Shown: positions 4,105 to 9,075 of the stretch, piece by piece | Layout of the letters: each line of letters starts with the position of its first letter | How positions within the stretch are numbered: position 1 is the stretch's first letter | Assembly (NCBI GenBank): GCA_019187085.1 | Contig: JABARS010000032.1 | Location: forward strand, 1 to 64,000 | From: Pseudorhodoplanes sp. | GTDB taxonomy: Bacteria; Pseudomonadota; Alphaproteobacteria; Rhizobiales; Xanthobacteraceae | Length of the DNA: 64,000 nucleotides | Direction: 5' to 3' | Program-made: the position numbers and the translations under genes | Notes under the pieces: generated by a model | Databases searched by the model: none | Told to the model about the DNA's origin: nothing | The model's input: the letters and a program-made list of their open reading frames with translations, nothing else

Positions 4105-6267
4105 ATGCGTATTGTCGATGTCGTCGTCCCGCTCGCGCTCGACCAAGCCTATTCCTATCGGGTTCCGAAGGACATGGCGCTGGCCGCGGGCGACGTCGTG
4201 AGCGTGCCGCTTGGTCAGGCGCATTATACCGGCGTCGTCTGGGGCGAGGGAAATCCGCGGCCCGGTCTGCATAACAGGCTGAAAGACGTCGCGGAGAAGC
4301 TCGATGTCCCGCCGCTGAAGGACGAACTGCGCGACTTCGTCGACTGGGTGTCTGGCTATACGCTCGGCGCACGCGGCACGGTGCTGCGCATGACGCTGCG
4401 CATGGGCGAGCATCTGGGCCCCGCGCGCGAACGCGTCGGCGTGCGCCTTGCCGGATCGCCGCCGCAGCGCATGACGGTAGCGCGCCGGCGTGCGCTCGCG
4501 CTTCTCGCCGACGGCATGCTGCGCGCAAAGGCCGATGCCGCGCAGGAAGCCGGCGTCTCGGTCGGAGTGATCGACGGGCTGATCGACGAGGGCACACTGG
4601 AGACGGTCGTGCTGCCGCCCGATCCGGTCGCCGCGCCGCCCGATCCGGCTTTTGCCGTGCCCGACCTCACCGATGCGCAGCGCGCTGCTGCCGATGCATT
4701 GCGCGCCGGCGTGCATGCAGGATTCTCCGCAACGCTCATCGACGGCGTGACCGGCTCCGGCAAGACGGAAGTCTATTTCGAGGCGGCGGCCGAAGCGCTG
4801 CGCGCCGGACGGCAATGCCTGATCCTGATGCCGGAGATCGCGCTCACCACGCAATTCCTCGACCGCTTCGCCGCGCGCTTCGGCGTGCCGCCTGCCGAAT
4901 GGCATTCGCAGCTTACCCCGCGCAAACGGGCGCGCACCTGGCGCGCGGTCGCCGACGGCGAGGTCAAGGTGATCACCGGCGCACGCTCGGCCTTGTTCCT
5001 GCCCTATGCCGATCTTGGGTTGATCGTCGTCGACGAAGAGCATGACCAGGCCTACAAACAGGAAGACGGCGTGCATTACCACGCGCGCGACATGGCGGTG
5101 GTGCGCGCGAGCCTGTGCCGGATTCCGGTGATCCTGTCGTCGGCGACGCCGGCGGTCGAAAGCGAGGTCAACGCGCGGCGCGGCCGCTACCGGCGGCTGC
5201 ATCTGCCGGAGCGGTTCGGCGGGCAGGCGATGCCGCAGGTCGAGGCGATTGATCTCACGCGCGAAGGCCCGCCGCGCGGGCGCTTCATTGCGCCGCGCCT
5301 TGCCGAAGCGATGACGGTCGCGCTTGAACGCGGTGAACAGGTGCTATTGTTTCTCAACCGCCGCGGCTATGCGCCGCTGACGCTGTGCCGCGCCTGCGGC
5401 TTTCGCCTCGCCTGTCCGAATTGCGACGCCTGGCTGGTCGATCACCGTTTCCGCCGCCGGCTGGTCTGCCATCATTGCGGCTTCGCGATGCCGCCGCCGG
5501 AGACCTGCCCGAAATGCGAAGCGAAGGATTCGTTCGCCGCCGTCGGTCCGGGCGTCGAGCGCCTGCATGAAGAGGTCGCCGCGCTGTTTCCCGGCAAGCG
5601 CATCATCGTCCTCTCCAGCGATCTCGTGGAATCGACGGAGCGGCTGCGCGCCGAACTCGACCAGGTGGCGGCCGGTGAGTTCGACATCGTCATCGGCACC
5701 CAGCTTGTCGCCAAGGGCCACCATTTCCCCAAGCTCAATCTCGCCGGCATCGTCGATGCCGATCTCGGGCTCGCCAATGGCGATCCGCGCGCCGCCGAGC
5801 GCACGTTCCAGCTTCTGCATCAGGTCGCCGGCCGCGCCGGCCGCGAAGCGGGTCGCGGCGTCGCCTATCTGCAGACGCACCAGCCCGAACATCCGGTGAT
5901 GCGCGCGCTCGTGCTCGGCGACCGTGCGGCCTTCTACGACACGCAGATCGAGGAACGCGAGCGCACCGGCTATCCGCCGTTCGGGCGGCTTGCCGCGCTG
6001 ATCGTCTCCGGCGGCGACAGGCACGAAACCGAAAGCTTCGCACGCAAGATCGCCGCCTGCACGCCGCTCGACGAGGCGGTGCGCGTGCTCGGGCCGGCTG
6101 AGGCTCCGCTCGCCATCGTGCGCGGGCGTTACCGGTTCCGCCTCTTGGTGAAATCGCCGCGCAATTACGACCTTTCCGGCTATCTGCGCGGCTGGCTCGC
6201 TGAGGCGCCGAAGACGCGCGGCACGCTCAAGCTGGAAGTGGACGTCGATCCGCAGAGCTTTTTGTGA
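4105..6267 (+). CDS. priA: Primosomal helicase PriA
   Basis: The 720-residue product is the 3'-5' helicase that restarts stalled replication forks by loading DnaB. An N-terminal 3' DNA-binding domain is followed by helicase lobes with Walker A GSGKT (residues 217-221) and Walker B DEEH (310-313). A zinc region with four C-x2-C pairs (eight cysteines, about residues 428-472) interrupts the helicase, as is diagnostic for PriA. The C-terminal domain is present and the length is normal. It is divergent from xerC; both proteins act in replication and chromosome maintenance. Confidence 0.96.
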   Translation: MRIVDVVVPLALDQAYSYRVPKDMALAAGDVVSVPLGQAHYTGVVWGEGNPRPGLHNRLKDVAEKLDVPPLKDELRDFVDWVSGYTLGARGTVLRMTLRMGEHLGPARERVGVRLAGSPPQRMTVARRRALALLADGMLRAKADAAQEAGVSVGVIDGLIDEGTLETVVLPPDPVAAPPDPAFAVPDLTDAQRAAADALRAGVHAGFSATLIDGVTGSGKTEVYFEAAAEALRAGRQCLILMPEIALTTQFLDRFAARFGVPPAEWHSQLTPRKRARTWRAVADGEVKVITGARSALFLPYADLGLIVVDEEHDQAYKQEDGVHYHARDMAVVRASLCRIPVILSSATPAVESEVNARRGRYRRLHLPERFGGQAMPQVEAIDLTREGPPRGRFIAPRLAEAMTVALERGEQVLLFLNRRGYAPLTLCRACGFRLACPNCDAWLVDHRFRRRLVCHHCGFAMPPPETCPKCEAKDSFAAVGPGVERLHEEVAALFPGKRIIVLSSDLVESTERLRAELDQVAAGEFDIVIGTQLVAKGHHFPKLNLAGIVDADLGLANGDPRAAERTFQLLHQVAGRAGREAGRGVAYLQTHQPEHPVMRALVLGDRAAFYDTQIEERERTGYPPFGRLAALIVSGGDRHETESFARKIAACTPLDEAVRVLGPAEAPLAIVRGRYRFRLLVKSPRNYDLSGYLRGWLAEAPKTRGTLKLEVDVDPQSFL

Positions 6268-6291
6268 GGCGAGGTGCCGTGAGGCCCGTCT

Positions 6292-6606
6292 TCACGCCAC
6301 AAGCTTCAGCCCGACGATCCCGGCCAGGATGAGCCCGATGCAGGCAAGCCGCAGCGCGGTCGTCGGTTCGTTGAACAGCACGATACTGAGAATGACCGTG
6401 CCCACGGCGCCGATGCCGGTCCACACCGCATAGGCCGTGCCGACCGGCAGGGATTTCAGCGCCAGGCCGAGGAAGGCGAGGCTCAGGACCATCGCCAGGA
6501 CGGTGCCGACGGACGGCCACAGGCGGGAGAAGCCTTCGGTGTATTTGAGGCCGATCGCCCAGCCGATTTCCAGAAGCCCGGCAACGAACAGATAGGTCCA
6601 CGCCAT
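6292..6606 (-). CDS. gdx: Guanidinium exporter Gdx (SugE), SMR family
   Basis: This is a 104-residue small multidrug resistance protein with four hydrophobic helices. Glu13 in the first helix is the conserved proton/substrate site. The segment [18 protein letters not shown] is the hallmark of the SugE/Gdx branch, which exports guanidinium in exchange for protons, rather than of the broad-spectrum EmrE branch. The start has aaggagag seven bases upstream. The guanidine-II riboswitch at 6653-6704 on the same strand independently supports the guanidinium assignment. The gene converges on priA with a 24-bp gap. Confidence 0.95.
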
Positions 6607-6652
6607 GACGGAACTCTCCTTTCAGGGTGTCCGCGAAAAGCAAACACGCGCT

Positions 6653-6704
6653 GGCAGGGTCGTCCCCACCGATGTCCGGAATTGAAGACGAGGTCGTCCC
6701 CGTC
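6653..6704 (-). promoter_or_regulatory. Guanidine-II (mini-ykkC) riboswitch
   Basis: On the minus strand two 7-bp hairpins each carry the tetraloop ACGA. The first is GACGGGG-ACGA-CCTCGTC (6704-6687) and the second GGTGGGG-ACGA-CCCTGCC (6670-6653), separated by 16 nt. Paired hairpins with ACGR loops are the defining structure of the guanidine-II class, whose loops dock through their CG bases around guanidinium. It lies 46 nt upstream of the gdx start codon, whose RBS is at about 6612-6619, consistent with translational control. The family and role are established knowledge; the match is by eye. Confidence 0.9.
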
Positions 6705-6710
6705 GCCGGG

Positions 6711-6738
6711 GATATAGGCCCGGGCGGGCCCGCTTCAA
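6711..6738 (-). promoter_or_regulatory. Candidate sigma-70 promoter for the guanidine-II/gdx transcript
   Basis: On the minus strand TTGAAG (6738-6733) and TATATC (6716-6711) are separated by 16 bp, each matching four of six consensus bases. Transcription would start about 7 nt downstream, near 6704, which is the first base of the first riboswitch hairpin. That agreement supports the call. Confidence 0.55.
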
Positions 6739-6816
6739 TCGCCGGTCCGGGAGCCGCTTGCGGCCAAAGGTCCCCGAAAAGCCCGCCCTTTCGATCAATT
6801 CCGGAGCGCCCCTGTG

Positions 6817-6845
6817 TTGCACCGCGGGTGCCCGTGTGTTAGCTA
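6817..6845 (+). promoter_or_regulatory. Weak candidate promoter for the atp operon
   Basis: TTGCAC (6817-6822) and TAGCTA (6840-6845) are 17 bp apart, 141 bp ahead of atpH. The -35 fits moderately and the -10 poorly. The operon promoter must lie between the gdx riboswitch and 6985, but this particular site is only a suggestion. Confidence 0.25.
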
Positions 6846-6985
6846 CCCGCTCGATTTCGCAAGGGTTCCGGGCCGCCCCCCGTGAGGTTCGGCGAAATCG
6901 GAATTCCCTCTTGGATTCCAATGGTTTGCGCCGCGCTTCCCCGCGATGGCGTCGGGCCTGCGGATTGCACATTTCTGGGCTCCCC

Positions 6986-9075
<2,090 letters not shown>

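Follow-up and report, generated by a model that had tools for sequence, protein, structure and literature searches.

In the window (the whole stretch of 64,000 nucleotides that was analysed), the minus-strand gene gdx (sugE) sits between priA and atpH, both on the plus strand, and is preceded by a promoter, two hairpins with ACGA loops, a third hairpin and a Shine-Dalgarno sequence. The features are as follows.

4105-6267, plus strand: priA, divergent neighbour (NF004070)
6292..6606, minus strand: gdx (sugE), predicted SMR guanidinium exporter, 104 aa (PF00893, 1.1e-29; NF008512; PDB 6wk5)
6616..6620, minus strand: Shine-Dalgarno AGGAG, 9 nt 5' of the ATG (sequence)
6627..6647, minus strand: hairpin P3, GTGTTTGC-TTTTC-GCGGACAC, 8 bp including two G-U pairs, between P2 and the Shine-Dalgarno (sequence, leader fold)
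6653..6670, minus strand: hairpin P2, GGTGGGG-ACGA-CCCTGCC, 7 bp, loop ACGA at 6663-6660 (sequence, stem count, models)
6687..6704, minus strand: hairpin P1, GACGGGG-ACGA-CCTCGTC, 7 bp, loop ACGA at 6697-6694 (sequence, stem count, models)
6652..6705, minus strand: guanidine-II aptamer pair, i.e. P1, a 16-nt linker and P2 (RF01068, 29.9 bits; R1, 45.2 bits)
6711..6716, minus strand: -10-like box TATATC, predicted transcript start about 6704 (sequence, relatives' register, genus alignment)
6733..6738, minus strand: -35-like box TTGAAG (sequence; conserved TTG box in gdx loci)
from 6986, plus strand: atpH, divergent neighbour

The gene downstream of the riboswitch is gdx/sugE, predicted to encode a guanidine exporter. 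Its protein scores 133.8 bits against the SugE equivalog NF008512 (cut-off 126), and its best structure match is Gdx-Clo (6wk5), with which it aligns ungapped over residues 1-102 (E 1.1e-30); the match to EmrE is much weaker (E 5.9e-13). This bears out the original prediction, which had named a SugE/Gdx-type target gene. According to the available excerpt of PMC7695847, Gdx and Qac pumps are told apart by W16, and guanidinium exchange is reduced or abolished by S42A and W62F. All five residues E13, W16, S42, Y59 and W62 (Gdx-Clo numbering) are present in the gdx protein, as expected of the Gdx subtype. Guanidine is a nitrogen compound with toxic effects. The likely function of gdx is guanidine-induced export, whereas the general annotation is that of a quaternary-ammonium efflux pump. 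A second gdx-like gene, 60% identical, is found elsewhere in the window's own genome (locus L139, G000 contig C40:12092-12400); it keeps the Gdx residues, and no guanidine-II element was found upstream of it.

Two ACGR-tetraloop hairpins are a feature of the guanidine-II class, and both P1 and P2 carry the loop ACGA. Their coordinates, loops and 7-bp stems (a count that includes G-U pairs) are as originally predicted. The linker between them is 16 nt long (6686-6671), within the range of 7-40 nt given for the class in the available excerpt of PMC7544219, and 46 nt of the minus strand separate P2 from the gdx start. When both strands of the 64-kb window were scanned for hairpin pairs with ACGR loops, stems of at least 4 bp and a spacing of 16-70 nt, P1 and P2 were the only pair.

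At the Rfam gathering threshold, a search of the whole window missed the riboswitch and reported only a tRNA. The original prediction had proposed a scan of the leader with the mini-ykkC model (RF01068), and at a relaxed threshold this model gave the best match, spanning 6655-6705 with 29.9 bits (E 0.00018 in 251 nt). The score falls short of the gathering score of 32 bits, which is the curators' detection threshold and not a structural feature. Across the genome, RF01068 ranks the riboswitch first (E 6.4e-4), the runner-up having an E of 0.44. The Rfam cut-off is also failed by the copies in G007 and G024, so that in this lineage it misses sound members of the class. Two other RNA matches were taken as chance: one to DUF3577 in the 251-nt region (20.5 bits, cut-off 42.6) and a lone guanidine-I match in the window's own genome (20.7 bits, cut-off 63).

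A covariance model designated R1 was built from the leaders of 35 relatives, with the window and its genus excluded. Of 110 loci, 80 come from named genome contigs and 30 from relatives, the window's own locus among the latter. A double hairpin lies upstream of gdx in 61 of the 110, a count that replaces one of 45 of 80 from a different hairpin search; the 35 leaders were hand-chosen from these 61 for spread and short linkers. R1 gives the window's copy 45.2 bits, with an E of 3.3e-8 in 90 kb of sequence, and scores those of G005, G004 and G007 at 49.7, 42.6 and 36.8 bits, respectively. In a search of the genome (3.68 Mb) it found one convincing site (E 1.3e-6; next E 0.125). The stems are conserved: P1/P2 covariation in the 35 leaders is 0.507, as against 0.192 +/- 0.019 when shuffled and no more than 0.248 when the partners are slid, and 11 of 14 P1/P2 pairs show changes on both sides, the inner pairs being biased because loci were selected on a GGACGRYC-like core plus at least 3-4 inner pairs. 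The guanidine-II identity claimed for the element is thus upheld by RF01068, as its best match, and by the 45.2 bits of R1.

A promoter, TTGAAG-N16-TATATC, had been predicted to start transcription at the first base of P1. A strict sigma-70 consensus scan (E. coli) of 6250-7050 reported no promoter, and the promoter was therefore judged by conservation. In the 50 bases 5' of P1, 29 of 61 gdx loci carry the pattern TTGNNN-N16-18-[CT]AT[AC][ACT], devised after inspection of the sequences, and 32 do not. The 29 matches are not independent events, since the loci include several near relatives; shuffling of the same windows gave a mean of 0.66 and a maximum of 4 (200 rounds), and control windows 100-150 bases upstream gave 0 of 61. 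In 25 of the 29 matches the five-letter box ends 6-9 nt 5' of P1, which points to a start at or close to P1; the remaining distances are 5 nt (the window, in an overlapping register), 12, 20 and 22 nt. For the window, the pattern search reported that overlapping register with a spacer of 18 nt, and the predicted boxes with their 16-nt spacer also fit. Moreover, TATATC lies in the same register as the CATATC/TATCT boxes of relatives, and TTGA boxes stand in about equal columns in G000, G004, G005, G007 and G024 in the genus alignment. The conservation supports the predicted promoter, and transcription probably starts at, or one to two bases from, P1. A promoter directly 5' of P1, seen across the locus set, is a testable detail of leader design.

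The leader of the window is long. The gap from the R1 edge to the gdx start codon is 45 nt, and the median over 92 RNA-gdx pairs is 17 nt, with gaps of at most 29 nt in 72 pairs and of at least 34 nt in 20. P3 lies within this gap; folded alone, it has a z of -0.9 relative to shuffles. Three of eight genus genomes (G000, G005 and G007) carry an additional hairpin 3' of P2 and 5' of the Shine-Dalgarno, with differing sequences, and G004 is without one. The P2-to-Shine-Dalgarno interval was folded in 16 of the 20 long leaders, those of G118, G204, G222 and G246 being left out. In 14 of the 16, 11 of which come from two genera and are not independent, the interval folds better than the shuffled mean (z -4.2 to +1.1, mean about -1.55); G148 (z +1.1) and G213 (z +0.2) go against the trend. 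Most likely, P3 takes up inserted leader sequence by folding it, which would hold P2 and the Shine-Dalgarno close together; such a spacer role is a fair conjecture that has modest backing. More doubtful is the wider proposal that in longer leaders a third hairpin, with more than one origin, contributes to the working of the guanidine-II expression platform, for which the chances are rather low. If true, the hairpin would fold the insert away or stack between P2 and the ribosome site, and the switch would still work over a larger distance. P3 is a testable detail of how guanidine-II leaders are built.

Still longer intervals between P2 and gdx, of about 84-98 nt, are present in Rhodopseudomonas (L022) and in genus g29 (L099, L172, L174 and L191-L193), where a large branched hairpin ends just 5' of the Shine-Dalgarno. 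In locus L190 (G148), ACGACCCTCCA, the P2 loop with its 3' strand, occurs a second time downstream of P2, in what looks like a half-P2 duplication ahead of the Shine-Dalgarno.

In the proposed mechanism, a leader transcript would run from P1 into gdx under the gene's own sigma-70-type promoter. By analogy with the class, as guanidinium rises P1 and P2 would bind it through their ACGA loops, and kissing of these loops would hold P2 formed. Without ligand, P2 would tend to open, leaving its strands to pair around the ribosome site. Ligand would release that site, and the exporter would be made. Folding supports these two steps for the set of relatives and not for the window's copy. The guanidine-II class is described as translational, guanidine exposing the Shine-Dalgarno, in the available excerpts of PMC12186494, PMC7544219 and PMC5486947, and no intrinsic terminator was found in 6250-7050. 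On account of this family precedent and of the missing terminator, translational control of gdx is likely and is the best guess for the window's copy.

Folding was carried out on 60 leaders, L081 (match starting at residue 13) being excluded; they include near relatives and are not independent, and loop kissing is outside the fold model. In unconstrained folds the mean probability of being formed was 0.74 for P1 and 0.25 for P2. With both hairpins forced, the ribosome site became cheaper to open in 56 of the 60 leaders, with a mean gain of 3.23 kcal/mol as against 1.75 in leaders in which the region 3' of P2 was shuffled and the Shine-Dalgarno and AUG retained (P 6.6e-6, 60 loci), and the gain exceeded the leader's own shuffled mean in 45 of 60. 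The window's copy gained 0.74 kcal/mol, which was equalled or beaten by 51 of 150 shuffled leaders; the real gain was reached by 6 of 150 shuffles for G005 and for G007, 1 of 150 for G004 and 43 of 150 for G024. The mean unpaired probability of the Shine-Dalgarno, for which the opening energy with shuffled leaders is the stricter control, rose in 44 of 60 loci, and in the window's copy only from 0.46 to 0.51. Taken as a whole, the window's leader does not fold better than its shuffles (z -0.35). In L103 and L108, the bases just 5' of the ATG have an exact complement in the P2 loop region and 3' strand (9 and 8 bases, respectively), a clear anti-Shine-Dalgarno alternative of a kind that the window's copy is without.

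The alternative that survives best accepts the aptamer as real and has control act mainly on RNA stability or on transcription (e.g. through Rho), P3 then being part of the platform. In its favour, release of the ribosome site in the window's fold is not above shuffles, and the gap from P2 to the start is longer than usual and holds a third hairpin. The original prediction had taken the gap between switch and Shine-Dalgarno as a sign of translational control, and that argument does not stand, since it needs P2 near the ribosome site and the gap of 45 nt exceeds the family median of 17. Nevertheless, no terminator-like site is present, P2 competes with the ribosome site in relatives, and published accounts of the class have it act on translation (PMC12186494 and PMC7544219, in excerpt), so that control other than translational is considered unlikely.

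Across 248 family genomes, R1 gave 145 matches in 117 genomes at E <=0.001, and gdx was found at E <=1e-35 in 136. By coordinates, 92 of the 145 matches lie at most 300 nt upstream of a same-strand gdx match, the gdx rows having been taken only from genomes with an RNA match and picked by eye. The riboswitch occupies the equivalent position in G004, G005, G007 and G024. In the G007 copy (L091:1847-1899), the P1 loop is GCGG and not ACGR, and P2 keeps ACGG; this could be either a tolerated variant or a damaged P1. Of the eight genus genomes, two (G001 and G002) have gdx in the equivalent place, divergent from atpH, and lack the riboswitch. The G001 gene (L097) keeps all five Gdx residues, with no guanidine-II element between it and atpH. 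In G002 (L106), AtpH is 95% identical to that of the window, and the frame of the syntenic, riboswitch-less gdx has TTG at the aligned ATG start and R in place of the transport-critical W62; it seems to be a decaying gene, switch and transporter decaying together. In G006, gdx lies 1.1 kb from atpH, again with the riboswitch absent.

The absence of the element from G001 and G002, together with the score under the Rfam cut-off, could suggest that the window's own guanidine-II copy has decayed and lost its response. However, both loops are ACGA, both 7-bp stems are unbroken, and the promoter, the Shine-Dalgarno and the key residues of the exporter are intact, all of which makes decay very improbable. 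A chance hairpin pair in GC-rich DNA, with no riboswitch at all, could appeal to the sub-threshold Rfam score and has a negligible probability, being refuted by the R1 score (E 3.3e-8) and by 200 dinucleotide shuffles of the window, which had on average 0.005 hairpin pairs when stems of at least 6 bp were required and none at 7 bp, and the element stands in the equivalent place in four relatives. It is almost certain that gdx is controlled by a riboswitch of the guanidine-II (mini-ykkC) class and that this riboswitch has a sigma-70-type promoter of its own. Apart from one small additional hairpin, the riboswitch is ordinary: it adds a member to a class that is already well described, and it lies where such elements are usually found.

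The window's system can be compared with three known ones. Gdx-Clo (6wk5), a guanidinium/H+ antiporter, shares with the window's protein, a predicted guanidinium transporter, an ungapped alignment over residues 1-102 and the same E13, W16, S42, Y59 and W62. With the guanidine-II class (mini-ykkC, RF01068), the leader has in common the ACGR loops, G-C closing pairs, the 16-nt linker and a Gdx-type SMR gene downstream; it differs in a distance from P2 to the start above the family median, in the extra hairpin inside this distance and in its score just under the Rfam cut-off. The E. coli gdx (sugE) leader carries the same RNA class upstream of the same exporter. There, positions -30 to -11 take in P2, whereas in the window the start codon comes 57 nt after the beginning of the P2 loop. 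According to the available excerpt of PMC13064478, deletion of this P2 region (-30 to -11) in E. coli strain ZX-1 makes gdx expression constitutive, which, by analogy, is consistent with P2 as part of the off state.
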